Origin: a virus
Length of the DNA stretch: 36,998 nucleotides
Virus record (IMG/VR): IMGVR_UViG_3300030419_002920
Location: 1 to 36,998 of that record
Strand: one strand, 5' to 3'
Below are positions 2,555-36,998 of the stretch, piece after piece. The first letter of the stretch is position 1, and each line of letters begins with the position of its first letter. A program made the translations under genes and the position numbers. The notes below the pieces were generated by a model. It saw only the letters and a program-made list of their open reading frames with translations. It searched no databases and was not told the DNA's origin.

Positions 2555-3380
2555 ATGTGTTGGAGATACTGAGATAATTTGGCTAGAAGGAAAGCCCGAA
2601 TCAGAGCCTACTCATATTATCGTATTCAACCAAGAAGAACAGGGTTTCGCTTCTTTCGGCGTGGGTATGGGTTTGATAGGAGATGAAAAACCCATCGCTA
2701 AAATCTTCTCTAAACTATTTTCCATCCCAGCATTTAATGAAATTCCTGACCCCCTATTCCCTGAATGGCGTCTGTATGAGAAACGCGCAGATAATGGAGA
2801 TAGATTTTTCATTCTTAGGATTATTCATTTCCATCCAACAATGTTAGGAGCAGACGCGGGTGCTAACAATTATGTTTGGCTCTACTCTTACCCTATTATC
2901 CGTGATATCATTACTTCTCTGAATGATTGCGGAGTTAATCAATCCACTTTCTTAACCAGCGATACAATGTCAATTTTCACTCCCCATCAAGGTAATGACT
3001 TAAATTCTATTGCTGTTTTTGATTACATGAATTCAACAGAGGAACCAATGAGTAAGGGTGTACCAGTAGAGGGGGATATCGTATGTACTCCCCCCGCGTG
3101 GATGTGGTCGTGTATTTTCAAAAACTTCTGTACTCTAGATGATGTGGGGTGTTGGATTGTATTTAGTAAGGCACCCGATACTTTCCTTGACCGTGATGGT
3201 GTGGATTTACTCCTAGAATATGTGGGTGATGTACTAGGACTGTCATATAATGAATCTGAGTTATTCTCAGCCATTGATACTCTCGCAACGATGGAGTCTT
3301 TTACTGATGGAATTACATTAGATAGATTTATGGCTTCGGGTTTCTTTGAGAATGACAGCAACGGGGGAATGTTCGGTTGA
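2538..3380 (+). CDS. PAC2-family-like protein (possible proteasome assembly chaperone homologue)
   Basis: 280 aa from ATG 2538 (MKKRIECVGD). The layout recalls the archaeal PAC2 family. An early glycine loop reads VGMGLIG (PAC2: PGMGLVG-type). About 20 residues later comes EIPDPLFPEW (PAC2: EI-DSPLFPP-type). A helix with SLNDCGV precedes strand FLTSD. The C-terminal part runs GDIVCTPPAWMW, then a strand, then PDTFLDRDGVDLLLEYVGDVLGL (PAC2 typically has hxhPD-xAAxxLLExLxxLLGh). PAC2 proteins help proteasome core assembly or bind related partners; a viral copy might alter host protein turnover. The family match is by eye, and the function in a virus is speculation. It is coupled to the MCM-like gene by a TTGA overlap. 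Confidence 0.5.
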   Translation: MKKRIECVGDTEIIWLEGKPESEPTHIIVFNQEEQGFASFGVGMGLIGDEKPIAKIFSKLFSIPAFNEIPDPLFPEWRLYEKRADNGDRFFILRIIHFHPTMLGADAGANNYVWLYSYPIIRDIITSLNDCGVNQSTFLTSDTMSIFTPHQGNDLNSIAVFDYMNSTEEPMSKGVPVEGDIVCTPPAWMWSCIFKNFCTLDDVGCWIVFSKAPDTFLDRDGVDLLLEYVGDVLGLSYNESELFSAIDTLATMESFTDGITLDRFMASGFFENDSNGGMFG

Positions 3381-10307: not shown

Positions 10308-11305
10308 CTTGGGGACAAGGACAGACAAGTCAGCCTACTGTGGCAAAAAGCACTAGTGCTGCGCCACCTGCGCCTGTCTATGATGGTTCATATTATCGCA
10401 ATCTCTTTGAGAATACTAGGGCCCAATCTGTTCCTGTTCGTTGCGCTCTAGTTGGTCGGGAGAATACCGCCAAGACAGGGCTCGCTTTAGACTTAGCAGA
10501 TGCGGATATACAGGCCGGAAAGAAGGTCGTAATTTTTGACATTGATAATAGCGCAAAAGCCACCGTAGATTTTGTCTATCCTAATGCCGACAACATTTCT
10601 GTTCTTCCCATCTTTGATGAGACGGATGATTCTATCTTCAATGAGGATAACACCACTAACTATGTCGCACTTGTTGATAAGGTAAATTGGTTCGTGAATA
10701 TCCTAGCAGAAAAAATCAAGGAGAATCCCGATGAGTACGGGGCTCTAGTATTTGATGGTGGTTCTACTTTCCTAAAGTGGTGCGAACATGCAATGACTTA
10801 TGTTTTACAGAACAGGAGTAAGAACCCGGTTAATCCCGAAGATGGTGATAAATTCAATCAGGCTGAATGGAGAATTCGTAATCAGTTATTCCGTGATACC
10901 GTTAATCGAATCCACGGTTTGCCTATCGAGAAGGTATTTTTCACCTTCCACTTGAAGGAAATCAAGGAGTTTATGAATGACGGTACAGGAAAGAAGGTAC
11001 TCATGACAATCGGTGAGCGCCCTGAATGGGAGAAGGGAACCATGCGGTTATTTAGTCAGCAAATTTTCCTAACTCGCTACATGAAGAACCCTGACCCTGC
11101 TGCGGGTGTCAAGCCCGATAAATCATTGGCCGACGGTGAATGGGTCGTCAAGGCTGAGATTGAGGAAATGAAGGGTAAAAATATGGAGTTACTTGGTACA
11201 ACCCACACAATCCTTTCTGTCAATAAAGGAAAGGTCAAGTGGACTGGTATCCCTGCGCTTACATGGGATGAAGTACAGCCCGAAAAGGGTGATGCAGATG
11301 CCTGA
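10304..11305 (+). CDS. RecA/RadA-superfamily ATPase, Sak4-like
   Basis: 333 aa from TTG 10304, which overlaps the previous stop as TTGA and lies behind GAGGGGTGG. After a Pro/Ala/Ser linker comes a P-loop region CALVGRENTAKTGLALDLA (Walker A as GxxxxAKT, residues 51-58), then GKKVVIFDID, and a Walker B strand YGALVFDGG (146-153). Further on, VFFTFHLKEI and KGTMRLFSQQIFLTRY fit the core strands of RecA-fold ATPases such as phage Sak4, which help single-strand annealing with an SSB partner. The gene's position directly after the OB-fold protein is the usual Sak4/SSB pairing. The P-loop is unusual (N-T-A-K-T rather than GKT), so activity is not certain. Confidence 0.6.
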   Translation: MTWGQGQTSQPTVAKSTSAAPPAPVYDGSYYRNLFENTRAQSVPVRCALVGRENTAKTGLALDLADADIQAGKKVVIFDIDNSAKATVDFVYPNADNISVLPIFDETDDSIFNEDNTTNYVALVDKVNWFVNILAEKIKENPDEYGALVFDGGSTFLKWCEHAMTYVLQNRSKNPVNPEDGDKFNQAEWRIRNQLFRDTVNRIHGLPIEKVFFTFHLKEIKEFMNDGTGKKVLMTIGERPEWEKGTMRLFSQQIFLTRYMKNPDPAAGVKPDKSLADGEWVVKAEIEEMKGKNMELLGTTHTILSVNKGKVKWTGIPALTWDEVQPEKGDADA

Positions 11306-11528
11306 GTCATACGACGATATTACTACTCTTGGTGGTATCTTACAAGCCTTCATGTGCTTTAGCGCCGAAGAATTACAACGCTTCTATGAGAAGCCGTGGC
11401 AATGGAAGAACGAATGGAATTGTTATCTTCATATTGTTGAAAAGTATGGCTCCTTTGAAGTCGAGGATTCTGAAACCCAAGAGAAGATTATAACGCTCAT
11501 GAATGTTTGTCTTTTACCAACAGAATAG
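11298..11528 (+). CDS. Hypothetical small protein (76 aa)
   Basis: ATG 11298 lies behind AAGGGTG and overlaps the preceding gene by 8 nt. The frame is open further upstream but only inside that gene, so the longer version is rejected. The protein has TTLGGILQAFMCFSAEELQRFYEKPWQWKN in the first half, with many aromatic residues, and an acidic helical end (SETQEKIITLMNV). No family is recognised. Placement between the Sak4-like ATPase and the clamp suggests a small replication accessory factor; this is inference. Confidence 0.55.
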   Translation: MPESYDDITTLGGILQAFMCFSAEELQRFYEKPWQWKNEWNCYLHIVEKYGSFEVEDSETQEKIITLMNVCLLPTE

Positions 11529-11533
11529 ATACT

Positions 11534-12355
11534 ATGAAGATTCAAACGACTGATTTGATACGCTTATTGGATAAGGTTCAGCGTAAGCATTCTGTTGCTG
11601 GTTCTACCCAGCCCCAAGTATCAGCGTGTATGCTTAGAGGCGATGGTACTGATAAGGTCTCTGTGACTTCTCTTGTCAAGGACGGTGTTACTTCTGTATT
11701 TCGATTTAGTGCATCAACGCGTCCACAGACCGAGATGGAAGAAATTCCTATACCCGACATTGATAGAATCAAAGGTGTTCTCAAATATCATGGTGGAATT
11801 CTTGATATCAAGTATGTGGAAGGAAAACTAAGACTGAAATCCGGTAAGAAATCAACTACTATTTTGGCTAGTGGTAATGCTAGAGCATTTCCTCATAGCC
11901 CACACACTATCGCTGAATGGGAACAAAGGTCTCTTGAGCGTGCTAGAGCGATTGATTCTGAAAGTCATATCTACACTACACGGGACGGGTCTCAAATAAC
12001 TCCCGTACTAACTGTTTCATTAGACTCCGTTGAATTGTTTGAGGCTCTAAGATGCGCGTCAATGAATTCTCAGAAGGACGGTATTTTCACTTTCATTCTT
12101 GATGAGAATGTTTTGAGCGTTCGTGTCGGAGAGGATTTGAAAGGGAGTACAACCACGGTGCTTTGGGATGATGTTCCATTAAATCGTAATAAATGGGAAG
12201 CGAAATTTAAGGGTGGTCTTGACCATCTAATGAAGCATATCAATGGTCAAATTTTTGTTAGTTTCTTCGATTTTCGCAATTTCAATCAAGGTATAGCAAT
12301 GCTTATAACACATGGGAAACAGGATTTTAATTACCAAGCGGGGGCACTAGAATGA
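11534..12355 (+). CDS. Probable sliding clamp (PCNA/gp45-like)
   Basis: 273 aa from ATG 11534; the frame extends to 11507 but only through a TTG inside the previous gene. The N-terminus MKIQTTDLIRLLDKVQRK is like the first helix of DNA clamps. Strand-rich repeats follow, with IPIPDIDRIKGVLKYHGG-ILDIKYVEGKLRLKS resembling the domain-1 end of clamps. A second domain begins near TPVLTVSLDSVELFEAL and ends GQIFVSFFDF. Length fits a two-domain PCNA-type subunit that trimerises around DNA. The sequence is divergent and the assignment relies partly on its place between clamp-loader and polymerase genes. No strong Shine-Dalgarno sequence is visible. Confidence 0.6.
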   Translation: MKIQTTDLIRLLDKVQRKHSVAGSTQPQVSACMLRGDGTDKVSVTSLVKDGVTSVFRFSASTRPQTEMEEIPIPDIDRIKGVLKYHGGILDIKYVEGKLRLKSGKKSTTILASGNARAFPHSPHTIAEWEQRSLERARAIDSESHIYTTRDGSQITPVLTVSLDSVELFEALRCASMNSQKDGIFTFILDENVLSVRVGEDLKGSTTTVLWDDVPLNRNKWEAKFKGGLDHLMKHINGQIFVSFFDFRNFNQGIAMLITHGKQDFNYQAGALE

Positions 12356-17737: not shown

Positions 17738-18436
17738 ATGCTCGTCATTGATGATAGGGAAAATGACAAAGTAATTGACAGACTCAAACGCAGACTTGGC
17801 TCTGATGCCGCGGTGAAAAGATTATCTGTGGGTGATTATGTTATCGGTTCTTGTGGTGTAGAGGCTAAAGAAATCAATGACCTTTATCGTTCTATTATGG
17901 GTTTCGGGAGAAGCCGTACAATTATTTCACAGTTAGTTGATTTACAGGAGTCATTTGAAGAACCTATGTTGGTTGTCTATGGTACTGTACTGAAACCATA
18001 TCTAAAGGGAAGAAATGACCCCCACAGTCTCGCTAGAGAGCGAGAAAGAATGGAAGGGGTGATACGCCATTTCAAACATACTTTCTACCACCGATTTCCT
18101 AAGATTAGATACATGGAAGTAAAAACAATGGACGAATTTGTAGATTGGTTAGTGACTAATCACACGCAAATGAATATCGTCGGGATGGCTAAAGAAAATG
18201 AACAGACCGCCAACCTGAAACCAATGGGCGAATTGGACCCTAGAATTGCTGTGTTATCGAGCATACAAGGGATTACCCCCACTACCGCAGAATTACTTCT
18301 AGAAAAATTTGGCAGTATCCCAAAACTACTTTCACGAAAAACTACGCAAAAATCTCTGATGGAAATTGCTGGTATAGGACGAAAAAGAGCGAAAGAAATC
18401 CTAAGTTTAAGGGACTCTATGAACTTCGGGGAGTAA
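17738..18436 (+). CDS. XPF/ERCC4-family structure-specific nuclease
   Basis: 232 aa. The ERCC4 nuclease domain (1-135) shows DDRE (5-8), VGDYVI (31-36) and VEAKEIND (41-48), which corresponds to GDxnERKx3D with the Arg changed to Ala. A tandem helix-hairpin-helix domain follows (IQGITPTTAELLLEKFGSI and LMEIAGIGRKRAKEIL). This is the arrangement of short archaeal XPF and Mus81-type nucleases that cut branched or flapped DNA; host XPF normally binds PCNA, and no clear PIP box is visible here. It probably resolves replication or recombination intermediates. The gene is the last rightward one and overlaps the end of the hub gene by 20 nt on the opposite strand. Confidence 0.9.
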   Translation: MLVIDDRENDKVIDRLKRRLGSDAAVKRLSVGDYVIGSCGVEAKEINDLYRSIMGFGRSRTIISQLVDLQESFEEPMLVVYGTVLKPYLKGRNDPHSLARERERMEGVIRHFKHTFYHRFPKIRYMEVKTMDEFVDWLVTNHTQMNIVGMAKENEQTANLKPMGELDPRIAVLSSIQGITPTTAELLLEKFGSIPKLLSRKTTQKSLMEIAGIGRKRAKEILSLRDSMNFGE

Positions 18437-21400
18437 ATTGTTCCGAAGTAGAAGTACCACTAACACCACCCCTGCGGATATTTACAGATACATCGTGGAT
18501 AATAATTGAATTGGGGGCGTCGTCTCCACCAAAACCTGCTTCTCTGTAAATCTGAACTTGGATAGTATTACCCGGTGTTTCTACACCATCTAGATTACTT
18601 AGAGGGAGAACCTCGGTTAATCTTCTACGGTATGGAGCGTCAATAGGACAGAAACCTTGAACAGATGCATTGGTTTCTAGACAAGTTGCTTCTACTCTAA
18701 TTACTCCCCTTCCACTAGGAGAAGAGGGGTTAGATTCTAGAGTAATAGTAGATGATACTGAGATATCATTTCCGACAATATCTCTTGGTACACTAATTTG
18801 TCCCGACAAAACAGATGTTACAGCGCTAGTATCGGTAAATCCTTCACCACTAGTAGAACCAACAGGAAGTATCATACCATTTCCACCAGCGAATGCTGCT
18901 CCACCAACAGGTCTAATATCAACATTGGAACTTACTGGAGCGCCCCTAATAGTAGAGGGTGCCATACTTGGCTTCTTTTGGCCTAAGACATTAAAACCAC
19001 CTTCTATTGTCAAATTATCTAAAGACATTTTTCCTTTTACTCTAGCCATTGTTGCATCAGAAATGCGATTACTGGTAAATGAAGAACCGATAGATGCCCC
19101 GCCGCCTCCATCTCCTAACTGTCTTCCACCACCTCCCGGGATTTGTGGTGACGGGTCTTGTCCTACTACACCAAACCCATACGCAGACTCGGGTTGATAT
19201 GGTATGGGTTGGTCTTGACTATCTTCCGCTCCATTGAGAATGTTTGAAGCAGTTTGTCTTCCGGGTTGAGTAATCGGGAAAAGATAAGAAACAATACCAC
19301 CAGCCGCCAAAGACTCGTCTCTTTCAAGTCTTAAACGAACATCTTCGGTATGTCTATCGTTAACACTCCAATTCACCTGCTGAATTACTAAGGTTTCATT
19401 CGATAAATCTAAACCAGCATCTGTGTATTTCACATAGGTCGCTGGGATATAACTTAAATCATCAGTAACATAGATTCTAGGTGCATACCATTCGCTCCTA
19501 TCGTCTGCAAAGGATGACATTTCTGTGTACTTCCTTAATCCTAGAGGAAAAATACTCTCTGTATTATATGAAGGGAAAGAAGATATTCCGGTTATATCAT
19601 GAGCATTCCTTAGAATATCTGCGGCAGTATAATCACCGCACCTATGACGCAATAATGCTCTGCAATACTCTGCGTTAAAAGAGATTACAAATTTAGCACC
19701 CGACGAATTTAGAGATGAAGAATAAGAACTGGGCACCAAGATTTCATAGAAACCGCTATCTTTCACATCAACAGTAGAACTCCCCGAAGAAGTTGCGGCT
19801 AATGTGGGGCACCCTCCACCCTTTGCACTAGAAGTACCAGTTTCAAATGTATAGTCTATGAAACCGATGGTGAATTCTGCATTATCAATATCTGTTCCTG
19901 TTTGTCCGGTTTTTAGCCAAACACCTACTCTCATTTCTTGTAAAGAAGTTGCACTTGTAGTTGGACATTTTGCTGGTACATGGACTAGTTGTACTGCATA
20001 ATTAATGCTATTAGCCCCATACCAATAATAATTTTCTTCCCAATCAATATCAGCAGAAGAAGTATCTATCTGTTCGCTTTTACCCCATCTCTGATAAATG
20101 TCAGGATTACCGTCTGCACCAGTAGCGGCTGAATACATATTACCATCCATTCCATTTACCATACCCGGGAATAAAACTCCACCTGTTCCCAAATAGGTCC
20201 AATTTTTTGCTTGGTATGTATTAGCATTGTAACCTTGAATTGCTCTTTGTACATCTGCAATATATCCAAACTTACCATGTGATAACATCTTATCTTCCGT
20301 AGTAGTATCTTTGATTGGTTCTGCTGAAATTTGCATTCTAGAATTTTTCAAAGAGTTATATTCCTTCTTAGCCATAGAAAGTGCTTCTTCATCTGAATAC
20401 AAATTGGGATGCTCTACTATTTTCCATCTAGTAGTATCTGACATTTCAGGTGTAGGATAATCTATGAAGTCTTGTCCGTTTCGATAATAAACCCGAACAT
20501 TTGTAATTCTATCAGAAACATCAGTTTTCAAATCACTAACCATTAGATTACTTCTTGAAAAATCGTGACCGCTATTGTACTTAGGTCTGAACTCCATTCT
20601 TCCATCTCTACCCATTAGATAAGAAAAATTAGTAGTATGTCCGTTTGTCGTACCTATACCTGATGAGTTTTGGATTCTACTTATTGTTTCCCATATTGTT
20701 TTCGACCTTGAATCAACAACACTCCCATATGAGTCATTGGTAGAAGTAGTATTGTATGTAGTCATTGTTCTAGTATTTGGGATATTATTAATATCGAATA
20801 CACATGACAAACGAGTTTGAGGTAGCCAAGTATCCATTACTGCTCCATTCCATAATGCCCTGAATTTATCGCTATCGAAAAATGTACCGCTGTTTTCATT
20901 ACGAGTAAATCCTTCTAAATGCATCATTAATCGAAGGATATATGATGGTGCGAGACTATTTGAAATTTGAATAGTATCATATGTAGTTGTTGATAAGTCC
21001 CCATTAAAATACTGAAACCTATCTCCTGCCTGATGCATAGCCCTATCTACTTTTCTTTTGTTCGTATTAGCATTATTGGTAATAGCGCCACTTATATTAG
21101 TGGTACTTGTTCCGAATACATCGCACAGTTGCTCGGGAATACTATATGCATCGCTTAATCTCCAAAGTCTTAGAAAATCAGGTATTGAAAAGACGGGTTG
21201 TAATCCCCATTGACTACCATATAGATTTTCTGTTTCTATTTGACGCATAGTAATTATATTTCCATCATAGATATATCCCATCAAAGAAACCTGTAATTCT
21301 GTTTCAGACTGGACTTTATTAATTTTCCAATAATATGTCGCCCCTTCAACTTCCAAAGCACTAGCACTAATTGGATTAGTTGTATTGCGAATTATCATCC

Positions 21401-24400
21401 CCTTTTCAATCCCCCATGTTTGAAAAGTAGCAGAAGAATCTACCAAAGATACATATGCTGCACCAGCGGTCCAGTCTTGTCCCTGTCTTACTGTTACTCC
21501 ACCTGCATGAGAAGATGTAACACCAGTAACACCAGTTAATTGATTTCCACTCTTACCAGTCCATGAAAAATCATCATCTACTGTATCATCAATTTTTCCA
21601 GTCCCGCTATCTGCAAATTTAGAAGCATTAAGTAAAGTAATTGTTGATGTACCACTACTAATGGAGCCATCAAGTGCGCTTAAAGCGCCTCCATTATATG
21701 CTGGTTGTGTAGTAATTGTTCCTGTTCTTGCTGTACTATTTTTTCCTTTCCATGCAAAAAAGAATTCAGAAAGTGTAGGGGTAGTATTGCTTCCTTCCGC
21801 TTCCTTTATTGCTGTTACTTTTCCATAACCTGAATTATCAAAAATAGTAATATCTGTCGGGAGCAAATAATCACTTCCTCTTTTGATAGATTCTGTGCTA
21901 GTTGTATGAGAAGTAACTAATGATGATTCATTAACATGTGTATCATATGGAGAACCTACATTTAGGAATGAAGCAGGTGCCTCTCTCCAATAAGCATCTA
22001 TTAATACTGGTTCACCAGCAACAGTAATAATAAAATCATCTAAAGTTGTACTTCCTCCTGCTGTCTGTCCGCTTTTTCCTCCATTAATAGTAGTATTTAA
22101 GTTGAAGAATTTCGCTGCATCAATTACAAGGAATGCTCCCGCTTTATCTTCCCAATCTTGATATTGAGATAATTCAATTTCGCAGCCACCAGCAGGTGCT
22201 ACATGTGTACCTCCTGTTTCAGCAGTATCTGCACTATACGCTACATCCAAATCAATACCGTCTGTTCCAGTATTAGTGGCTATTACCTTGTATGTACCAT
22301 TGTGTACTTGACTATTGTATATGGTTGCATAATCATTTACAACAAAGTTTGTTGTTCCATTAAATCCAGTTAGTCTTAATTTTCCTGACCCGTTATTGAC
22401 AACACTAGAAACTAATTGTCCTTTAGTATAATCAGGTGGTTTGGAAAATGCCCCGCTAGTAGATGGGTCATTTGTAGAATCAATATCCCACATATCAATA
22501 TCTTCATTGAGTTTAAGGTCGGTGAATTTATCCATAATACCGTCTGAATTTTCATCTTGGTCTATGTAAGAAAGACTTATATCATAATTTTCAGAAGTAG
22601 GATACATCAAACCAAATTTCTTTTTTCGATATCCTCCAGCAGCATCTGCTCTCCCATTATTTCTCATATCTGACCATAATAACCACACATGTTTGTAATC
22701 ATCGCTAATGTCTAAAATGTTAATTTTCGGGCATCCGCTGGGGTCACTTAGAGGATTTGTACCAGTATGCTTTTTACTAATATAATCAACACCAATTAAA
22801 TAATAATTTCCACCGGAAGAAACTCTACCTTTCCAAATAAATGTATCCGTGGAACCATTAGCACTTTCGATTTCCCCTAACCCACTATAAACACTAGAAA
22901 GTGCAGAATAGGTCGCTGAATTAATTTGGATAGTTTTACTACTAGGATTAACCACAACAGTATTTGCAATTTGGTAAGAAACTAAAGGCGTTTTCTTAAT
23001 CTTTCCGAAATGATATTGGAACCATAAAGACAAAGGTAAGTCTCTCATAATTCTAGCATGAATTGCTTTTGAGGAAATGTTTTTATCAACAGCAGTAGGA
23101 ATTGGAATAATTTGTCCTCGGGCTGTACTAACATTAACTCTTGATGTACCACTTAATAATCGTGTATCTGAACCATGCAAACCCTGATACATTACGGTAC
23201 CACTTGGATAAGTATAAGAATGTCTAGCATCTCTATCAAAATAGATTCCTATTTCTGTTCCTTGTTTGACAATATAGTCTTCGGGGCTATTATTAGTTAA
23301 ATCAATTACTTGAGGAAGTCCATACAAATAACTTTCATTATCGGGTGGAGTATGACTTAAACCATCGTTTATTTCAGCATATCCTAAAACACCTTCCATA
23401 TTTGAACCATCAATTTCTTTGTAGATAATTGGAGTACCATTAATACTAGCAGTTTGTACCCATAATTCTCCAAAGTAAGTACCACTTCTAAATCCAGTAG
23501 TAGAAGTAATAGTAATATCATTTGAATCAGCAGTTGTTGCTCCACCGGAAGCCTGTGTAGCAAGAGTTGTTTCAGCATTAATATGATAAGGTGTATCTGT
23601 TGTTACGACCCAATAATATGTGGGACTTCCACCACTAAATTCATAATCTTCGGTTGTACTATTCCAAGTCCTGTCGGGTTGTCCGTAATGATAATTCAAA
23701 CACTTTTCTACGGAAACACATGAATGTTGTCCTGCTATTGTAGTATGTGAATCTCCAGCATCGGTACTTCTGATAGGTATTGTGAATACATCACCGGGAA
23801 CTAAACCCGGGTCTCCATCAAACCAAAAAGTGTAAAATGCTTCATTTACTGGGTCATTGATATTTGGATGACCATACTTAAAATCCGACCATGTTTTTCC
23901 GTACAAGAAATGGGCTCTACTATGCCATATTCCTGTATTTCTTGCATATGCTCCATCGAATTCATCCTCTTGTAATCTAAGGTTAGTATATTTTCCTGCA
24001 TATGCAATTTTTGTTGCAGCATCGGGGGTATATGTTAAGTCAGATGTAGCAAAATGTAATCTTTGATTTCCATTGGATAATGTAGTTACCTGAATTGGTT
24101 GTTTATCAACAATGTTATTCGCAGGAACCGAAACTCCTGCAATAGTTTTGGAATTAATAATACTAAGAGTTGATGAAGTAGTAAATCCGGGATTACCTAT
24201 TACATCAACATAAGTATAATCTGCGGTTGTACTACTAATAGTAGTATTCTCCTGACCAAAAGCAACAATACCTACCCCTTCATAGTTTTCTTCTATTGAA
24301 TTAGGTCCATATTCTAATTCTTCATCATTATACATCTGAATTGGATTACCAGCATTTAATTGCGTTCGTTGGTCAATTCTTTCTAAGTAACTATCATCTA

Positions 24401-26210
24401 CATCTAATCCTACTGTTGGTTTAAGATTTAAGAGGGGGGAAGCACCTAGATACATTAATGTATTGAATCCTTGTGCATCGTAAAGCCAATATGGAGTATT
24501 AGATTCATTAGTATTCAATCCTTTTTGTCCGACTTCCCATAGAGGTACCTGTCTATCTAGCAAAGATAACATATCTTCTGCTTTAAGTTCAATAGAACGA
24601 CTTCTTCTACGCTGACTAACTCTCATGCTACTACAAATCCCTTTCCAAATAGGTCTATCAATCCTATTTGTTGTTTCCCTAAAACCGCCAGTAGAATTCC
24701 CAAAGACAATTAGAAGCCAATCTTTGATTGCATTATCGCTAAATAACTTAGTCAATTCAGTATTATAGTCAGTTGTAGCAGTACCAATAGAGCCTCCCGA
24801 ACTAGCAGGGTCATCTGTAAGAGATAGCGAAACTTGACTAAATCCATTTACAACACTTTTCATGCTGAAATCACTTATTTCGGGAAGCGCATTACCTGCT
24901 GGATGGTCTGTAAGAGGGCGATAAAGTGCCATTCTATCTAGCATTAAAGTAACAGATGTATGGTCATTACCAGTAAGAGGGTATGCCTGTATATCCCACC
25001 CGTACATGTCGCTTGCTGTTACACCTGCTCCACTAGCCATATTATATCCACTACTGTATGCTCCGCCACTATCGTTTGTAGCAGTAATCTCTGTACCATC
25101 ATGATAGACTTTGAATTTTCCATTAGTATAATCCATTACAAAGTCAAGGTCAATCCATGCTTCATATTTCGTATAACTATCTGCCGTAGTAGAATTATCA
25201 TACCATGCACCGTAGTAATCATAGTTAGAGTCTTTCAACCCATTCCCTGTACTAAAATTCATAGACCATACAATTTCAGGGGTTCCAGTCAAACCACCAT
25301 CTAGCGCGGTTCCAGTTGGTGCGCTATCATATCCAATACTAATTTTTACTACTGGTGGGACCTTTCCGTTATTTGCAGAAGCACCATTGAATGAACGAAT
25401 AGCAAACCTAACCGTAAAAACATCATCATCTTTAACAGAATTCAAAGAACCGTCATAAATAATTGCTGATTTAGTACCATGAGATGTAGGACTATCATGG
25501 TATGATTGACTACATAGAAAAGGTTTCCCCGAAGGAGACCTTACAGGCTGAAAAACTACACGGGGACTTTCTATGGTTCCTCCGTCTTTATGAGCAAATT
25601 CTGTCATCTCTCCTAACCAAACACCAGCCAAATGAGCCCTTTGTACAAAGTCGCCAGTCAAATCTGATGCTTTCCCACCAGCGATTTTATTATTGTAATT
25701 TGCTACTGTGAAATTTTTTGAATCGGTTCTTCCAAATGTAGCATCATTATCTCCCAATGGAACAATATATCTTCCTAATGTATCATTACCATTAATAAAT
25801 AATTGGTAAGCAGTAGTACCCGCACCATTATATTTGTAGATATTTCCAATGTGACCATCAGGATATTGTAACTGTGCTTTTCCTTCCCAATCACTAGGAT
25901 TCTGTCTAATTACATCGCAACCTAACCAATTAAATGAACCTGTATTGGAGAGTTTCTGTTCTGCGTCGTCTGAACCTATCAAAGTGGAATCATAGTTATT
26001 CCCTTTTGTTCTTTCTACATACGACCAACGATAACGAGGATTCAATGTTGCCTCCCCATTCATAGGATTTCCATAGTGAGATAGCGCATGATTGTAACTA
26101 GCGGTAGCAGAAGGCTCATTAGTATCTGTCGCAATACTTCTAGCACCGCCAAAATCATCATAAAGGCCAGCGAGCCAAAACCCGTACTTACTCTTTACTG
26201 TGCGTACCAT
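18417..26210 (-). CDS. Giant tail hub/tip protein (2597 aa)
   Basis: ATG 26210 has GGGGGATGAG upstream and follows the tape measure gene by 1 nt, the normal place for distal-tail and hub proteins. Residues 1-430 include concanavalin/LamG-like strands (for example KYEAWIDLDF, GKFKVYHDGTEI). A central module at about 1507-1580 reads SALDGSISSGTSTITL ... WTGKSGNQLTG and recurs in the adaptor protein. Residues about 1830-1960 resemble the hub domains of gp27/gpD type (YLMGRDGRMEF, ITNVRVYYRNGQ, DEEALSMAKKEYNSL). A glycine-rich linker at about 2350 precedes the C-terminal strand domain. It probably forms the tail tip and contacts the host surface. Domain borders are approximate, and the role is inferred from position and the hub motif. 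Confidence 0.75.
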   Translation of the reverse strand: MVRTVKSKYGFWLAGLYDDFGGARSIATDTNEPSATASYNHALSHYGNPMNGEATLNPRYRWSYVERTKGNNYDSTLIGSDDAEQKLSNTGSFNWLGCDVIRQNPSDWEGKAQLQYPDGHIGNIYKYNGAGTTAYQLFINGNDTLGRYIVPLGDNDATFGRTDSKNFTVANYNNKIAGGKASDLTGDFVQRAHLAGVWLGEMTEFAHKDGGTIESPRVVFQPVRSPSGKPFLCSQSYHDSPTSHGTKSAIIYDGSLNSVKDDDVFTVRFAIRSFNGASANNGKVPPVVKISIGYDSAPTGTALDGGLTGTPEIVWSMNFSTGNGLKDSNYDYYGAWYDNSTTADSYTKYEAWIDLDFVMDYTNGKFKVYHDGTEITATNDSGGAYSSGYNMASGAGVTASDMYGWDIQAYPLTGNDHTSVTLMLDRMALYRPLTDHPAGNALPEISDFSMKSVVNGFSQVSLSLTDDPASSGGSIGTATTDYNTELTKLFSDNAIKDWLLIVFGNSTGGFRETTNRIDRPIWKGICSSMRVSQRRRSRSIELKAEDMLSLLDRQVPLWEVGQKGLNTNESNTPYWLYDAQGFNTLMYLGASPLLNLKPTVGLDVDDSYLERIDQRTQLNAGNPIQMYNDEELEYGPNSIEENYEGVGIVAFGQENTTISSTTADYTYVDVIGNPGFTTSSTLSIINSKTIAGVSVPANNIVDKQPIQVTTLSNGNQRLHFATSDLTYTPDAATKIAYAGKYTNLRLQEDEFDGAYARNTGIWHSRAHFLYGKTWSDFKYGHPNINDPVNEAFYTFWFDGDPGLVPGDVFTIPIRSTDAGDSHTTIAGQHSCVSVEKCLNYHYGQPDRTWNSTTEDYEFSGGSPTYYWVVTTDTPYHINAETTLATQASGGATTADSNDITITSTTGFRSGTYFGELWVQTASINGTPIIYKEIDGSNMEGVLGYAEINDGLSHTPPDNESYLYGLPQVIDLTNNSPEDYIVKQGTEIGIYFDRDARHSYTYPSGTVMYQGLHGSDTRLLSGTSRVNVSTARGQIIPIPTAVDKNISSKAIHARIMRDLPLSLWFQYHFGKIKKTPLVSYQIANTVVVNPSSKTIQINSATYSALSSVYSGLGEIESANGSTDTFIWKGRVSSGGNYYLIGVDYISKKHTGTNPLSDPSGCPKINILDISDDYKHVWLLWSDMRNNGRADAAGGYRKKKFGLMYPTSENYDISLSYIDQDENSDGIMDKFTDLKLNEDIDMWDIDSTNDPSTSGAFSKPPDYTKGQLVSSVVNNGSGKLRLTGFNGTTNFVVNDYATIYNSQVHNGTYKVIATNTGTDGIDLDVAYSADTAETGGTHVAPAGGCEIELSQYQDWEDKAGAFLVIDAAKFFNLNTTINGGKSGQTAGGSTTLDDFIITVAGEPVLIDAYWREAPASFLNVGSPYDTHVNESSLVTSHTTSTESIKRGSDYLLPTDITIFDNSGYGKVTAIKEAEGSNTTPTLSEFFFAWKGKNSTARTGTITTQPAYNGGALSALDGSISSGTSTITLLNASKFADSGTGKIDDTVDDDFSWTGKSGNQLTGVTGVTSSHAGGVTVRQGQDWTAGAAYVSLVDSSATFQTWGIEKGMIIRNTTNPISASALEVEGATYYWKINKVQSETELQVSLMGYIYDGNIITMRQIETENLYGSQWGLQPVFSIPDFLRLWRLSDAYSIPEQLCDVFGTSTTNISGAITNNANTNKRKVDRAMHQAGDRFQYFNGDLSTTTYDTIQISNSLAPSYILRLMMHLEGFTRNENSGTFFDSDKFRALWNGAVMDTWLPQTRLSCVFDINNIPNTRTMTTYNTTSTNDSYGSVVDSRSKTIWETISRIQNSSGIGTTNGHTTNFSYLMGRDGRMEFRPKYNSGHDFSRSNLMVSDLKTDVSDRITNVRVYYRNGQDFIDYPTPEMSDTTRWKIVEHPNLYSDEEALSMAKKEYNSLKNSRMQISAEPIKDTTTEDKMLSHGKFGYIADVQRAIQGYNANTYQAKNWTYLGTGGVLFPGMVNGMDGNMYSAATGADGNPDIYQRWGKSEQIDTSSADIDWEENYYWYGANSINYAVQLVHVPAKCPTTSATSLQEMRVGVWLKTGQTGTDIDNAEFTIGFIDYTFETGTSSAKGGGCPTLAATSSGSSTVDVKDSGFYEILVPSSYSSSLNSSGAKFVISFNAEYCRALLRHRCGDYTAADILRNAHDITGISSFPSYNTESIFPLGLRKYTEMSSFADDRSEWYAPRIYVTDDLSYIPATYVKYTDAGLDLSNETLVIQQVNWSVNDRHTEDVRLRLERDESLAAGGIVSYLFPITQPGRQTASNILNGAEDSQDQPIPYQPESAYGFGVVGQDPSPQIPGGGGRQLGDGGGGASIGSSFTSNRISDATMARVKGKMSLDNLTIEGGFNVLGQKKPSMAPSTIRGAPVSSNVDIRPVGGAAFAGGNGMILPVGSTSGEGFTDTSAVTSVLSGQISVPRDIVGNDISVSSTITLESNPSSPSGRGVIRVEATCLETNASVQGFCPIDAPYRRRLTEVLPLSNLDGVETPGNTIQVQIYREAGFGGDDAPNSIIIHDVSVNIRRGGVSGTSTSEQFTPRSS

Positions 26211-26211: not shown

Positions 26212-29061
26212 TCAGAAACTCATCCCCCGTGAAATACCTTCTTCTTCAATAGCGTCTAGAATTACATTGGCTACTTGGTCAGTAGTTAGGCCATTGAAAT
26301 GATTATGCTGAATAACTTCTGTATTAGCAACGAAATTTTCAATTCCCTTTTGTTCTATTTGTTTAATCAAATCTCCAGTAATGTTCCCTGCTTTGAAACC
26401 AAAGAATAATTCTTCACGGGTATTATTAAAATCTTGTACTTGGTCCGCAGCATTTTTAACAGAATTGCTCCACATATCTATATTTGCAGCGTCATTAACC
26501 CACGGGTTATCTGCTGAATTTGGGTTATAGACATAAGGAGATAATGCTGCATCTTCCGCATCTGCATCACCCCATACACCTAACCATCCTAACACCTTCT
26601 CAAGAGCCCAAGAGATAGCAATAATTCCACCAGCCCATTTCAATACACTACCAATACTACCAGCAACACCTTTTGATGCACCAGCCACAGCACCACCAGC
26701 CGAAGCAGCAGCGCCACCAAGCGCTCTATATGAGTTAGCGGCACTATAATTTGCACTTGCTAATCTACCTGATGTTATCGCTGCGCTGCTCATTGCTTTC
26801 ATTGAATGAATCATTTGTGCCATCATCGTTCCGCTAGCAATTGTCATTGCTATCATTTGAATTCTAGCAGCCTGTGCCCCCTTTTCTCCTTTGAAAAATA
26901 CATCACCCAGTAAAGAAATCGCACCAGTAGCGAGCATAGCACCCATAGTAGCACCCATCATATTTTGTTGCATTTCGGATAATTGCCAGTTCATATCACT
27001 CCCCGCGCCACTACCAACTTCCATTTCATCGCCTAGATATATCATCTCTCCTGCTGCGTCATCTATGATAACATTAAGGTTTGATAATTGACTCATTCGG
27101 GCTCTTTCTGCTTGGTAAAGACGATTGACTTTTTGTAATTCCTTATCTAGTTTTGTTAGGTTCAAATCGTTTAGTCTGTTCCTTTCTGCTATTAGTTTAT
27201 TGTATTCATATTGCCTTTGCCTTCTACTCGCCCTATAACGGCTTCTTGACTTTTGGTCTTCTGCATCCTTTATTCGTTGTTGAGCCCTTTGGAGTTGCCT
27301 TTTCTTATTGGTAATATCCATATCCAGCCGTTCCATGTAAGCATAACTTTGAGCATTCCTTGCTTCCGTATCTCTGTCTGCTATTCTTTGAAGAATTGCT
27401 GCTCTTTCTTCTCTTAATGCCATCCATCTATCTCTATGGGTTCTAGCATTAGCCATCGCTATTCCTTCTTCAACCTCTATCATAGTTTGCTTTAAGGAAA
27501 TAGTATTCCATAATTCTGAGTTATAGATACCAAGTTCGGTATTGAGAGAATACTGACCATTAAGAGCGAGGCCATATCCTCTCGCTTCATTTTCAAAATA
27601 TGCTATTCTTTCTCCAGTAACTGCTCTCTGAATAGCATTGAATGTCATTACTGCTACTTGTAGTTGTTTGATATTCAAAAGTGCAGACAAAAATGGAGCA
27701 TACATCTGCTCTGCCATTTGTTGCATTGCCATTAAACGACCAACTATGTCATCTAAGAATGGAATAGATTCACTTAATTGTTGGCTAGTTAGTACAACCT
27801 GTTGGTAGAAGTCTGCTTGTCTTTCTGTGGCTAAGGTGGTAGCAGGAATGAAACCTTCACCGAGGGCACCCTGCCATTTATCCAATTCTGCTCTCGCAAC
27901 CTGTAATTTATGGTGGTGGGTATCTAAACGGTCTGAAAGATAATTAATTGCTTGTCCTGATTCATCCATAACAGCCTTTGATTGCGTGTATCCTTCGTTA
28001 GCCAATTGATTAACTCTGTTTAAGTCTTCCATTAGGAAAACTATTCTAGCGTAATGTCTGTTACCAGCAATGGCCTGTGCTAATGCCATACGCTGACCTT
28101 CTGATAGGCTTCTGTAAGTAGGGGCCAACTCATTCAAAATAACTTCAAGTCCGCGCATATTGCCTTCGGAATCCTTTACTTGTACTCCATATGCTTCTAC
28201 TGCATCAGCGGCGCCATTGATATTAGCACCAAGTCTAGCATATGCCATTCTAAGAGATGTACCTGACTTTTGTGCAGATACACCCCTTTCAATAAGCATT
28301 GCTGACATAGCAGCCATAAATTCTAGAGAGTCACCAGCCAAAGTAGCGGCACCAGCATACTCATTCATTGAATTTACCATTTGTGGCATAATAGCAGCGC
28401 TGTTATCCTCAATACTGTTTAAGGCGTTAAGTGTATTCGCCATTTCTTTAGTAACATGAAGCCTTTGTTGTTCTGCATTCATTAGTGCATATTCTTCTCT
28501 TGTTACTTCTCTAAATATGAATTGTGTTTGTTGCATAAGAGAAATCATCTTCTCTTGTGCATCTCTCGCTTCCATTTCACCAATAAGACCGAAAGCGAGG
28601 CTAGCCTCGACAGCAGCAGGTAAAGCGGCTTCTCCCATTACTGTCGCTAATTGCGCCATACGAGCCCCTGCTTGGAATGACTGTTCGGCTGTATATCCGA
28701 AAGCATTTCCTATCTCTGTAATCTCATCTCCTAATGCTGCTTGAGTAGTTTCATTAACGAATTTTTCAAACTCAATTCTAGCCAACTCAACATCTTCTGC
28801 AATTGGCATAGTAGCATTTCTAAGTTCATTAAATGGCCTAAACACCTCTAAAACTGCTTCTTCTACATTACTTAATCCATCTAACATAAGACCTTCAAAA
28901 GCGGTCATTGCCGCTCCTGTATCCTTAATCAATCGTCCGGCTTGGAATGTACCAACAATGTCGAAAAAGACCATTGAGGCGCCAGCACGCAATACAATCA
29001 TTGCTACCGCACAGGAAATGAAAATTAATGGTGTGAAGGAAGGAAATAGTATCTCAATCAT
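26212..29061 (-). CDS. Tail tape measure protein
   Basis: 949 aa from ATG 29061, which overlaps the upstream gene and has GGAG at good spacing; the GTG at 29085 is rejected. The N-terminus is strongly hydrophobic (FPSFTPLIFISCAVAMIVL). Residues about 150-340 match the TP901-type tape measure core, including AATLAGDSLEFMAAMSAMLIERG, KSGTSLRMAYARLGANINGA and GLEVILNELAP. A long charged coiled coil spans about 545-665, and hydrophobic Ala/Gly segments occur at about 700-724 and 780-834. Tape measures set tail length and may enter the membrane at DNA delivery. By length, a tail of about 140 nm would be expected if each residue spans about 0.15 nm. Confidence 0.9.
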   Translation of the reverse strand: MIEILFPSFTPLIFISCAVAMIVLRAGASMVFFDIVGTFQAGRLIKDTGAAMTAFEGLMLDGLSNVEEAVLEVFRPFNELRNATMPIAEDVELARIEFEKFVNETTQAALGDEITEIGNAFGYTAEQSFQAGARMAQLATVMGEAALPAAVEASLAFGLIGEMEARDAQEKMISLMQQTQFIFREVTREEYALMNAEQQRLHVTKEMANTLNALNSIEDNSAAIMPQMVNSMNEYAGAATLAGDSLEFMAAMSAMLIERGVSAQKSGTSLRMAYARLGANINGAADAVEAYGVQVKDSEGNMRGLEVILNELAPTYRSLSEGQRMALAQAIAGNRHYARIVFLMEDLNRVNQLANEGYTQSKAVMDESGQAINYLSDRLDTHHHKLQVARAELDKWQGALGEGFIPATTLATERQADFYQQVVLTSQQLSESIPFLDDIVGRLMAMQQMAEQMYAPFLSALLNIKQLQVAVMTFNAIQRAVTGERIAYFENEARGYGLALNGQYSLNTELGIYNSELWNTISLKQTMIEVEEGIAMANARTHRDRWMALREERAAILQRIADRDTEARNAQSYAYMERLDMDITNKKRQLQRAQQRIKDAEDQKSRSRYRASRRQRQYEYNKLIAERNRLNDLNLTKLDKELQKVNRLYQAERARMSQLSNLNVIIDDAAGEMIYLGDEMEVGSGAGSDMNWQLSEMQQNMMGATMGAMLATGAISLLGDVFFKGEKGAQAARIQMIAMTIASGTMMAQMIHSMKAMSSAAITSGRLASANYSAANSYRALGGAAASAGGAVAGASKGVAGSIGSVLKWAGGIIAISWALEKVLGWLGVWGDADAEDAALSPYVYNPNSADNPWVNDAANIDMWSNSVKNAADQVQDFNNTREELFFGFKAGNITGDLIKQIEQKGIENFVANTEVIQHNHFNGLTTDQVANVILDAIEEEGISRGMSF

Positions 29062-29341
29062 CCATATTCTCTCCACTATTGGCACTCCGTATGGGTACCC
29101 CGCTATCTCTCAATGCCTCAAAGAAATTATTGCTGTTGTTTGAATGTTGCTTTCGGTGCGCTCTCGCTTGGTCACGACGAGCAACAGCGCGTTTTGCGTT
29201 AGTTTGGGCTTCATTACTACTTTCGGCAACACGCTCTGCTATTTCTCCAGCAACCAATAAATCCATTTCTAAATTCCATTGACCGCCTTCTACTGCATAT
29301 CTTTCATATAATTCGCCGGGCGAAATTCCTTTGAAAGACAT
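29054..29341 (-). CDS. Tail assembly chaperone, frameshift extension (gpT-like)
   Basis: A charged 95-aa frame directly before the tape measure gene. Its apparent ATG (29341) has no Shine-Dalgarno sequence (CCGTCCCTTTGC before it). The frame is open upstream through the end of the 29356-29715 gene, in the -1 register, back past the slippery site at 29374-29380. It is therefore probably made mainly as the C-terminal half of a fusion, joined through GAFFRVAPSLC to the first 114 residues of the upstream protein (about 220 aa in all). This is the lambda G/GT arrangement, in which the long form helps load the tape measure during tail assembly. Confidence 0.75.
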   Translation of the reverse strand: MSFKGISPGELYERYAVEGGQWNLEMDLLVAGEIAERVAESSNEAQTNAKRAVARRDQARAHRKQHSNNSNNFFEALRDSGVPIRSANSGENMDD

Positions 29342-29355
29342 GCAAAGGGACGGCG

Positions 29356-29715
29356 CTACTCGGAAGAATGCTCCAAAGGGATTGCACCCTCCGGGTCTTC
29401 ATCACCACGAACAAAGCGAAGAATTTCATACATTTCTTCGCTAGTTAATGTATCTATATCGAATCCTTCTGTTAGAATACACTTATGGAGCCAAGACTGA
29501 ATTTGTGCTTCTACACCTGCGCCTTCTTCATCAACGGCTTGAGCAAATTCTTCATTCTGTTCTACCGTCCATTCTAGCGGGTCACCAAAATGTCTAAATC
29601 TACGAAAGATTCTAGCCTGTTTAGTTTCAATGGCTACTCTTTCGACACCGGAGGCTTGCCTCACTAGTACCTTAGTCCCATCGTCTAATTCAATTTCCCT
29701 TTTTAGAACTGGCAC
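29356..29715 (-). CDS. Tail assembly chaperone, short form (gpG-like)
   Basis: 119 aa from GTG 29715, with AAAGGGGGC upstream. The sequence begins as a strand pair (VLKREIELDDGTKVLVRQAS) and becomes helical, with WLHKCILTEGFDIDTLTSEEMYEILRFVRGDE, typical of phage tail chaperones. It lies between tail tube and tape measure genes, the usual site. Near its 3' end a slippery heptamer allows a -1 shift into the 29054-29341 frame. It overlaps the small lysine-rich gene upstream by 26 nt in another frame. Confidence 0.75.
   Translation of the reverse strand: MPVLKREIELDDGTKVLVRQASGVERVAIETKQARIFRRFRHFGDPLEWTVEQNEEFAQAVDEEGAGVEAQIQSWLHKCILTEGFDIDTLTSEEMYEILRFVRGDEDPEGAIPLEHSSE
29374..29380 (-). other. 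-1 programmed frameshift site (CCCTTTG)
   Basis: On the minus strand the sequence C CCT TTG is in phase with codons 113-114 of the short chaperone, matching X XXY YYZ. A GGAGGG (29387-29392) lies 6-7 nt upstream, where Shine-Dalgarno-like elements stimulate -1 shifting in dnaX. A small AGGG/CCCT pairing could also form. After the shift, reading continues GGA GCA TTC into the downstream frame without a stop. Confidence 0.8.
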
Positions 29716-29857
29716 CCTTTTTGCCCCCTTTCTTCGCTTCTTTCTTCGCGGCTGGCTTAGGTTTTTCCTTCGGTTGGATTAGAACCATTGTGGTCCTTCC
29801 CCCTTCCTCTCGTACTTCCCATACTCCATGCTCGTCCTCGTATGTATCACTACTCAT
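29690..29857 (-). CDS. Small lysine-rich protein (55 aa)
   Basis: A 55-codon ORF from ATG 29857, 1 nt after the preceding stop, with GGGAGG nine bases upstream inside that gene's end. The first half is acidic (MSSDTYEDEHGVWEVREEGG). The second half is Lys/Ala/Gly-rich (KPKPAAKKEAKKGGKKG), like a histone tail. It overlaps the next gene by 26 nt in a different frame. Position among tail genes suggests a minor structural or assembly factor; the basic tail could also bind nucleic acid. Confidence 0.65.
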   Translation of the reverse strand: MSSDTYEDEHGVWEVREEGGRTTMVLIQPKEKPKPAAKKEAKKGGKKGASSKKGN

Positions 29858-29858: not shown

Positions 29859-30050
29859 CTACTGGTCCTCCCAAATTATGTTCACGACAATGTCGTTTGA
29901 ATCTTTCTGTCTCTCATAGATAATCTCTATTATCTTATCTCCTGCGGCTAGTGTTCTAAGAGAAGTTTGTACTGCTGCATCCATTCCTGCTAAATCTGTA
30001 CTAATTTCAGTTACAGTTAATTTTGAAGGGTCCGTTATTGTATGTGCCAT
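29859..30050 (-). CDS. Hypothetical small protein (63 aa)
   Basis: ATG 30050 follows the near-perfect AGGTGAT. The protein is predicted to be strand-helix-strand: LTVTEISTDLAGMDAAVQTSL, then KIIEIIYERQKDSNDIVVNIIWE. It sits between the tail tube and chaperone genes. Proteins of similar size and place in other phages are unassigned tail factors. No domain is recognised. Confidence 0.65.
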   Translation of the reverse strand: MAHTITDPSKLTVTEISTDLAGMDAAVQTSLRTLAAGDKIIEIIYERQKDSNDIVVNIIWEDQ

Positions 30051-30058: not shown

Positions 30059-31090
30059 CTAGTATGAAGAAGACTTAAGCCCATTACTTCGTAATACAAC
30101 TGTCATCGCTTTATCTGCGGTTCCTGCATCATAAAGTCCGGTAAAGTTACATGACATGGTGTTAGTTTCACGACCACTTACATTGGCTTCGGGAGCCTCA
30201 AAGAATACATGGTATAGTTTTATTTCCATATATTCATCTACACTATCTTGTGAAGAAAATTTGAGAACAAGAGCGCCATTAGTACCATCTGTAACATCGT
30301 CACCATCTGCTGCAATTAGGTCATCATAACTTGGCTCATTGGCTGGACCACCGCTTCCATAAATGACTTCGTTGAATTCTATTGAACCAGTTATCTCTCT
30401 GCGCTGTGCTGGTGGCATTCTAACACAAGTGCTACTTCCTAGAGCATATGAATTATCAACATCTCTATTCAAATTAACATCTAGAGAAATTGATTTCACA
30501 GTAGCAGAAGCAGCACCCAAAGAAGAACCGGATGAAAATTTAACTACACCATCTGAGAAGTATAGAGCATCTAGAGCATCCCCATCAAATGTAGGGGTAA
30601 TTAGTGCTGCTGTTGCGCCTTCTGCCTTCCCAACGAAACTGACTGATAGCATTACATATTCTCCGACAGACGCGGATAAATTGAAACTTTGTGTACACAT
30701 TCCGGTATAAGTATGCATCTTTTCTTCTCGTCCTACCTTAATAGTCCATGAAGGCCATTCATCAGATGTAGTAGTTGGCTCTTGTAGAGTATGCTTGTAA
30801 ATTGGAGCATCGCTAGTCTGCACGGTATCGTTTGGGAAGAATGAATACATTAGATTTCCGACGAAATCATCAACCTGAACGGCCATGCTAACATCACCTT
30901 CGGAATACTCCTTTCCAGTAACAGCCTTAGAAGCAACAGGACGGCTCATATCATTACGAACCATCAAATCAAATCTATGTTGAAGGGATTCATCATCTAC
31001 CTCACCGTAGGTATAACCACTTCCGGGGTCTGTCCCATAAGTAGTTTCTTTCACAATTCCGACATACCGATTGAGGAAATCATCAGCCAT
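30059..31090 (-). CDS. Major tail tube protein
   Basis: 343 aa from ATG 31090 (TTAGGAG upstream; the GTG at 31117 is less likely). The N-terminus DDFLNRYVGIVKETTYGTDP is the hallmark of the Phage_tube_2-type tail tube family, followed by strand-rich sequence with YSEGDVSMAVQVDDF and VGNLMYSFF. Later parts contain KSISLDVNLNRDVDNSYALG and ISGSIEFNE-like strands, typical of the tube fold with an extra decoration. It would polymerise into the tube through which DNA passes. Its place between tail terminator and chaperone genes agrees. Confidence 0.8.
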   Translation of the reverse strand: MADDFLNRYVGIVKETTYGTDPGSGYTYGEVDDESLQHRFDLMVRNDMSRPVASKAVTGKEYSEGDVSMAVQVDDFVGNLMYSFFPNDTVQTSDAPIYKHTLQEPTTTSDEWPSWTIKVGREEKMHTYTGMCTQSFNLSASVGEYVMLSVSFVGKAEGATAALITPTFDGDALDALYFSDGVVKFSSGSSLGAASATVKSISLDVNLNRDVDNSYALGSSTCVRMPPAQRREITGSIEFNEVIYGSGGPANEPSYDDLIAADGDDVTDGTNGALVLKFSSQDSVDEYMEIKLYHVFFEAPEANVSGRETNTMSCNFTGLYDAGTADKAMTVVLRSNGLKSSSY

Positions 31091-31148
31091 TCCTAACGCT
31101 CCTAATGTTTCCACCACGACTAACGCGTCACTTAAAGGTATTGATACC

Positions 31149-34776: not shown

Positions 34777-35358
34777 TTATCGCCAATTCGGGCCTTCAAA
34801 CCAACCTACAAGAGAGGTTCTTGAACCACTTGTAATTGGCATTACTGCATGTTCTTGATAGGGCATAAATAACAATACGGTTCCTTGTTTTCTAACTGCA
34901 TCAGAACTAGGGCTAATATGATGCTTAAAAGCAAAATCCCCCCCTTCATATTCTTCGGGGTCTGTTAACTGAATGACTATTGACATTTTTCTATTTCTAC
35001 CATCTTGTCTATTCCAATCAATATCATGATGGAAGTCATAATGGTAACCCGGTTCTAAATACTCAGTAAATTGGATAGGAGGTAATGTATCGTAATCTAC
35101 ATTAAATTTCTCATTGGCTTCTGCTGCTAATTTGTAACATAAGTCATAGATTTCTTGGAATGTATCATCATGAGGAAGCCAACGAATTTGTGTTTTTCGT
35201 GCCCCATCATTTTCCCCATCGTCTTCCTGACCAGTACGAAAAGTCTTTGCCTCCTGTGCTGGCATTGTTTTACCTAATTCAAGCCATCTTTCACATGTTT
35301 CCTTTGGTATGTATTCTTCATACATTAACCATTGAGGATGCTTAAGAAGCATTGCCAT
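34777..35358 (-). CDS. 2-oxoglutarate/Fe(II)-dependent oxygenase
   Basis: 193 aa, prolyl-4-hydroxylase-like. Iron ligands are seen in YDFHHDIDW (H110, D112) and HAVMPITSGSRTSLVGW (H170), with R180 for 2-oxoglutarate; the end LVGWFEGPNWR is typical of phage members. ATG 35358 has AGGGAAGGG upstream. Such enzymes are common in marine viruses. Its place among tail-fibre and neck genes suggests it hydroxylates a virion protein or the host surface, rather than repairing DNA; the substrate cannot be told from sequence. Confidence 0.88.
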   Translation of the reverse strand: MAMLLKHPQWLMYEEYIPKETCERWLELGKTMPAQEAKTFRTGQEDDGENDGARKTQIRWLPHDDTFQEIYDLCYKLAAEANEKFNVDYDTLPPIQFTEYLEPGYHYDFHHDIDWNRQDGRNRKMSIVIQLTDPEEYEGGDFAFKHHISPSSDAVRKQGTVLLFMPYQEHAVMPITSGSRTSLVGWFEGPNWR

Positions 35359-35944: not shown

Positions 35945-36998
35945 TCACCATAGATTATACTTCACCCAAAGCACCATTTGTGCGTTTTGTAAATTAGTTG
36001 TTCCAGCAGTTCTTTTACATTGTAGAATATCTCCCGCATCAAAAGCAAAGTCTGCTTTACTGCGCCATGTATAATTAGTACCATTAGTATTACGCCAACC
36101 GGAATCACCAATAGTCATTGTTAAATCTTCAATATCGCTTCCACTTGAACCACCATTCCTTCTTACTCTCAAAGTATTAGCGGCAGTTCCTGTAATACTA
36201 CCACCACTAAAGAGACATGTCACATAAAGGACAGTTCCAGCAAATGGCATTGGGAATGCATTAGGGGAGGCATCATCAGCCGCAGTTGGGGCGCGGAAAT
36301 CCCAAGTATTTGTACCTAAACTTCCTCTTTCAAAGAATATAGGAACCAAGTTTCCTACTGATACCCCATCCGAGTTACCTTGCATCCAAATAGAGTTACC
36401 ATCTCCCGAAGAAATTGAGAGTTGGCTGTCGTCTGTTGCACTTGTTACATCAGCCGCACCTATGACGACATTGTTAGAACCAGTAGTGATGTTATTCCCT
36501 GCATCGTGTCCTATGGCTATATTGGTTGAACCCGTAGTAAGGATTTCCAATGACGCCATCCCAATTGCGGTGTTATCTGACCCACTAGCAGAAGCACCTC
36601 CTTTCATAGCGTCTGTTCCAACTGCGGTATTGTAATTTCCATCTATCCCATCTCCGGCTCTATATCCAAAGAAAGCATTGTAAGAAGCATTAGCCCCACA
36701 ACTCTTACCAGCAGTATGTCCTACGACAGTATTACCAATACCTGCTGTTGAAGTTTGAAATGCCTGAGAACCAACGGCGACATTGAAATGATTGTTGATG
36801 TTCTCTAACGCTTCATTTCCTACTGCAACATTTTGAGAGCCATATTCGTTAGTTTTCAATGCTTCATGTCCTATTCCAACAGTAGCAAATGCAGTTGTAG
36901 TTGCAGTTCCGGCATCATAACCAATCAATACTGATTTATCAGCAGAAGTAATCGCATCTCCGGCATAACTTCCAATAGCGATATTCTTTTCTCCACCG
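35945..36998 (-). CDS. Tail fibre with YadA-head-like repeats (5'-truncated)
   Basis: The frame is open to the window edge; the TTG at 36928 is internal, since repeat units (for example NIAIGSYAGDAITSADKSV) continue upstream. At least eight units of about 20-28 residues with the pattern N-xAVGxxAG/AL occur: VAVGNEAL, VAVGSQAF, TVVGHTAG, AFFGYRAG, TAVGTDAM, TAIGMASL, IAIGHDAG. This is the left-handed beta-roll of YadA heads and many phage fibres. A C-terminal domain of about 130 residues (from LVPIFFERGS) is likely a trimeric beta head. It probably binds the host surface. Confidence 0.85.
   Translation of the reverse strand, partial: GGEKNIAIGSYAGDAITSADKSVLIGYDAGTATTTAFATVGIGHEALKTNEYGSQNVAVGNEALENINNHFNVAVGSQAFQTSTAGIGNTVVGHTAGKSCGANASYNAFFGYRAGDGIDGNYNTAVGTDAMKGGASASGSDNTAIGMASLEILTTGSTNIAIGHDAGNNITTGSNNVVIGAADVTSATDDSQLSISSGDGNSIWMQGNSDGVSVGNLVPIFFERGSLGTNTWDFRAPTAADDASPNAFPMPFAGTVLYVTCLFSGGSITGTAANTLRVRRNGGSSGSDIEDLTMTIGDSGWRNTNGTNYTWRSKADFAFDAGDILQCKRTAGTTNLQNAQMVLWVKYNLW

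Follow-up and report, generated by a model that had tools for sequence, protein, structure and literature searches.

Programmed -1 ribosomal frameshifting in lambda-type G/GT tail-assembly-chaperone pairs is already known (PMC5009743). Comparable -1 G–T frameshifts have been predicted, as two reviews describe (PMC5009743, PMC8211752), for the haloarchaeal siphoviruses HVTV-1, HCTV-1, -2 and -5, while HF1-group haloviruses may use a +1 frameshift (PMC7230728). According to a 2021 review of archaeal recoding (PMC8211752), only one cellular -1 frameshift has been reported from archaea, with further cases predicted for a few haloviruses. The locus described here shares with HVTV-1 and the HCTV viruses an apparent tail-chaperone -1 frameshift in archaeal tailed viruses, and differs from phage lambda gpG/gpGT in its slip site, which is C_CCT_TTN instead of G_GGA_AAG. 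A sequence-only reading of the locus had considered examples with a CCCTTTG site plus a Shine-Dalgarno-like element scarce among presumed archaeal viruses. No report of CCCTTTG/CCCUUUG as a tail-chaperone slip site was found in the literature searched, although one may exist elsewhere.

The window, meaning the whole stretch of DNA analyzed, is a 36,998-base virus record, and the frameshift locus lies on its minus strand. The relevant features are as follows.

26212..29061, minus strand: tape measure protein (TP901 / PhageMin_Tail; TIGR01760, E 4.7e-22; PF10145 PhageMin_Tail, E 6.3e-21)
29054..29377, minus strand: T-like extension of 107 codons, counted from the shifted TTT codon and lying in the post-slip -1 frame
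29054..29715, minus strand: full G–T fusion coding region, a predicted 220 aa, deduced from conservation of the heptamer and of the -1 frame
29339..29341, minus strand: ATG inside the T frame, without a ribosome-binding site and probably not a start
29356..29715, minus strand: zero-frame ORF for a G-like tail assembly chaperone; GTG start, 119 aa
29374..29380, minus strand: slippery heptamer C_CCT_TTG, in phase with the G ORF (codons 113-114 out of 119)
29387..29392, minus strand: GGAGGG, resembling a Shine-Dalgarno sequence, 6 nt ahead of the heptamer
30059..31117, minus strand: tail tube protein (Pfam PF18906 Phage_tube_2, E 2.1e-21; PHROG 290, minor tail protein)

This arrangement, with the tail tube gene upstream, the G/T pair, and the tape measure gene immediately downstream, is the classic G/GT position. 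We conclude from sequence evidence that the pair is very probably of the lambda G/GT type and expressed by programmed -1 ribosomal frameshifting, as the sequence-only reading had proposed. The details of that proposal are borne out by the minus strand. Codons 112, 113 and 114 of G are ATC, CCT (29379-29377) and TTG (29376-29374), placing C CCT TTG in phase, and G ends at a TAG (29358-29356). The T ORF lies in the -1 frame, overlaps the end of G, and lacks a start signal of its own. This frame is bounded upstream by a TGA at 29401-29399 and closed by a TGA at 29056-29054, so that it is open from 29398, before the heptamer, through 29054. The fusion is predicted to comprise 114 + 106 = 220 aa with the junction ...AIPL|GAFFR..., matching the length and junction peptide (AIPLGAFFR) put forward earlier.

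Because the -1 frame is limited by its upstream TGA and G by its TAG, the heptamer-containing overlap in which both frames are open spans only ~40 nt. Across the ~11,600 codons of the window's ORFs there are 34 in-phase X_XXY_YYZ heptamers, and just 2 of these are C_CCT_TTG, making a chance occurrence within the overlap unlikely. Comparison of related sequences settles the question: the heptamer is conserved across 90 clusters of homologues, and its presence at codons 113-114 is not chance.

The motif also occurs elsewhere in the window. A second CCCTTTG lies just 3' of the G stop (29343-29349, minus strand), where it reads TCC CTT TGC in the T frame; being out of phase with that frame, it is probably a chance occurrence. 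The other in-phase C_CCT_TTG (2482-2488, plus strand) falls near the 3' end of the ORF at 2144-2554. It does not resemble a -1 site, since the ORF that follows (2514-3380) is shifted +1 instead of -1.

A single-sequence search recovered six relatives, and alignment searches yielded many more, on marine IMG/VR contigs. After deduplication, the set held 122 distinct G/T pairs, forming 90 clusters at 90% nucleotide identity and 54 at 80%. Final heptamer counts were made on the 90 clusters, and some others (SD-like motifs, ATG positions) on 77. C_CCT_TTN is in phase in 79 of the 90 (CCCTTTG 54, CCCTTTA 13, CCCTTTT 12, others 11), and the long -1 frame is open in all of them, with an early stop in 0/90. 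Of the 83 clusters with [VI]P[LF] at this position, 75 use CCCTTT, whereas the codon usage of these genes would predict 2.0. Any of V, I, L, T, C and P can precede the CCT codon, yet in 79/79 canonical clusters the codon for that residue has C as its third base. These comparisons across ~90 relatives show that the slip site is kept under strong selection. Homologue alignment had been suggested earlier as a check on the heptamer, the open -1 frame and an upstream GGAGG; the first two proved conserved, while the third, discussed below, is found in a minority.

The same data bear on whether a single ORF was split by a sequencing or assembly error or by gene decay. One single-base change would yield the same two-ORF pattern in any one genome, but here the same split, with a slip site in the same place, recurs across 122 distinct sequences that come from many independent assemblies. 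Moreover, the G stop moves among clusters, from 0 to 15 nt past the heptamer (directly after it, as CCC TTT A/G TAG, in nine), while the T frame stays intact. The comparison refutes such an error, and we regard its probability as practically nil.

A second possibility is that RNA polymerase, not the ribosome, slips at the C/T-rich run and so makes the -1 transition, and a CCCTTT(T) run is indeed present. Polymerase slippage usually requires longer A or T runs, however, and the homopolymer runs in most relatives are only 3-4 nt. In all canonical clusters, moreover, the heptamer keeps one fixed phase with respect to the zero frame, a constancy that tRNA slippage requires and polymerase slippage does not. 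We therefore consider transcriptional slippage extremely improbable at this locus, although it generates fusion products in some other systems (PMC5009743).

A further alternative is that G and T are translated independently, with ATG 29341 as the start of T, perhaps reached through translational coupling once G has terminated. An ATG is available for this purpose: the window has one 12 codons into the T frame, and 62/77 clusters have one among the first 20 codons of T. Yet the region between the G stop and the T ATG is evidently translated in the T frame, because codon pairs with a single difference are synonymous there in 94% of cases, compared with 10% and 2% for zero-frame and +1-frame readings. 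Such protein-level selection ahead of ATG 29341 is not anticipated for an independent start. The ATG also lacks the signals that mark neighboring starts: SD-like motifs accompany 2/62 T ATGs, as opposed to 59/77 G starts and 54/65 tape-measure starts, and anti-SD pairing energy at the T ATG equals that of random windows. The sequence-only reading's statement that this ATG has no ribosome-binding site thus holds for the window and for 60/62 clusters. Many relatives encode Ser at the ATG position (APSLCSAFKG), among them L003 and L004, and in L004 the first ATG appears only at T codon 75. The frozen synonymous positions of the heptamer likewise argue against independent initiation. In the predicted structure of T, a helix (residues 2-14) begins at the shift point and spans the ATG, with pLDDT of ~83-91 in this region. 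A separate start for T is, in our view, highly improbable.

Under the favored frameshifting model, the majority of ribosomes would read through to the TAG and produce the 119-aa G protein. A minority would slip by -1 on C_CCU_UUG, with P-site CCU re-pairing as CCC and A-site UUG as UUU, the two tRNAs presumably moving simultaneously, and would continue to 29054 to yield the 220-aa G–T fusion. By analogy with lambda, G would coat the tape measure protein, whose gene is adjacent, and the T portion would recruit the tail tube protein, whose gene lies just upstream. Since G would coat the tape measure and T recruit the tube, the slip rate may set the G:GT ratio needed for tail assembly.

Many known -1 frameshift sites have downstream structure. 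In the marine family, single-sequence folding gave z-scores near 0 for a downstream stem-loop or pseudoknot over the whole set, and RNAalifold on the gapless alignment, together with per-group tests, found no consensus downstream stem across that set. A short GTTCC/GGAAC stem considered for the subclade with TTT as second codon gained no support from shuffles. Upstream, the GGAGGG that had been likened to the dnaX stimulator does lie 6 nt before the heptamer in the window. Among relatives this element is not universal: an exact GGAGG occurs in 23/77 clusters, which is enriched over the synonymous expectation, and GAGG in 47/77. At codon -4, GAG and GAA are used 36:20, against 33% GAG across G genes, and within the 20 nt that precede CCT, the strongest anti-SD pairing exceeds that of synonymously shuffled sequences (z = -4.4, uncorrected for relatedness). 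Selection for an SD-like element is thus plausible, because GAG is preferred and pairing exceeds that of shuffles, but the element is not obligatory, with GGAGG in only 23/77. A modest Shine-Dalgarno-like stimulator upstream of the heptamer is plausible on these grounds, and GGAGGG may give a mild boost to slipping in the window. The dnaX site combines an internal Shine-Dalgarno with a stable downstream hairpin; the former may have a counterpart in GGAGGG, and for the latter the marine family gave no signal.

The clusters that depart from the canonical heptamer constitute a natural experiment. Eleven of the 90 lack a strict X_XXY_YYZ at this position, and all 11 have TTT as the second codon. 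Where the second codon is TTG or TTA, the CCC triplet is kept in 67/67 clusters; where it is TTT, 12/23 keep the triplet and 11/23 have lost it. In a tree of G and T from which the slip codons were excluded, the TTT group and its immediate neighbors hold all the non-canonical sites, with six changes of state. After the second codon became UUU, the CCC triplet was lost several times, giving N_CCU_UUU, N_CAU_UUU or a neighboring U_UUU_UUG. The deviant forms are A/G/U_CCT_TTT, A/G_CAT_TTT and, in L149, T_TTT_TTG one codon later; all keep T_TTT. First-triplet tolerance is known from other systems, with U_CC in some flaviviruses and G_GU in T7 gene 10 (PMC5009743), and the deviants would fit either such tolerance or single-tRNA slippage on U_UUU. 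We speculate that selection is shifting the slip mechanism away from strict two-tRNA slippage and toward tRNA-Phe slippage on U_UUU (or on a relaxed N_CCU_UUU), possibly with SD-like help in archaeal ribosomes; we hold the balance even on this point.

The chaperone identity of G draws mainly on gene position and frameshift architecture, to which predicted structure adds weak support from fold. Profile searches assigned G to none of the chaperone families of Pfam, NCBIfam or PHROG, and neither G nor T has detectable sequence similarity to profiled chaperone families. An AlphaFold2 model of G built from 48 homologues has a pLDDT of 88. In a Foldseek search of this model against the PDB, the top two places go to the two chains of 2OB9, the HK97 tail assembly chaperone, a weak match (E 0.27 and 0.59, probability 0.63, TM 0.39-0.45, 10-12% identity). 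Searching a viral library with the model gave a single strong match, a protein of unknown name (46% identity). Among the weak matches are several proteins annotated as tail chaperones, as well as proteins from Methanobacterium viruses psiM2 and Drs3.

Other genes near the pair add to the description of the locus. The tape measure protein likely starts at ATG 29061, overlapping the end of T, while its listed ORF opens at GTG 29085. Downstream of it is a 2597-aa ORF (18417-26210, minus strand) with no PHROGs match at E up to 1. A Lys-rich 55-aa ORF (29690-29857, minus strand) sits between a small ORF (29859-30050) and G, overlapping the G start by 26 nt. A 193-aa protein (34777-35358, minus strand) resembles, by eye, 2-oxoglutarate/Fe(II)-dependent oxygenases (HHDID...GGDF...RTSLVGW). 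The protein encoded at 35945-36928 (minus strand), just past which the contig ends, carries many imperfect repeats of the NVAVGNEAL/NTAIGMASL type, like repeat-rich fibre or adhesin proteins.

The window combines tailed-virus structural genes with an archaeal-type replisome (RFC-S, Hef/XPF, PolB). The best PDB matches of the RFC small subunit are archaeal RFC-S, the replication genes also include a Hef/XPF-type nuclease, and among the coverage-ranked matches listed for the family B polymerase, all are haloarchaeal tailed viruses at 22-24% identity. These matches indirectly support the archaeal-virus label given earlier and make an archaeal host likely. Two scans of GTDB genomes returned no related locus and no host link, and neither G nor the tail tube protein had a match among annotated phage records. 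By eye, the product of 10295-11305 (plus strand) looks like a RecA/Sak4-like P-loop ATPase (GRENTAKTGLALDLA). A guess that 11507-12355 encodes PCNA was unsupported by searches.

Annotation pipelines will split or drop the second gene of such pairs, and the tail-chaperone fusion should therefore be annotated group-wide. The ~90 natural variants of one site, from uncultured marine viruses, also form a ready mutational series for the slip requirements of archaeal ribosomes.

The C_CCT_TTT of the marine family's TTT subclade shares U-rich slippery codons with SPP1 gp17.5/17.5*, which uses U_UUU_UUC (PMC6316719, PMC5009743). Loss of the first triplet in this family recalls flavivirus NS1', where some viruses of the Japanese encephalitis group accept U_CC as first triplet (PMC6316719, PMC5009743). 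NS1' nevertheless involves a different gene and different hosts, and a pseudoknot is predicted for it (PMC2657137), whereas the marine family has no detected downstream structure. Relative to HVTV-1 and HCTV-1, -2 and -5, the present system differs in its C_CCU_UUN site, in belonging to a marine group, and in that conservation was tested over 90 clusters, providing comparative evidence far stronger than any single genome gives. What is new, within the literature searched, is the C_CCT_TTN tail-chaperone slip site, together with a large family of marine viruses that has lost the first triplet repeatedly, and only where the second codon is TTT.
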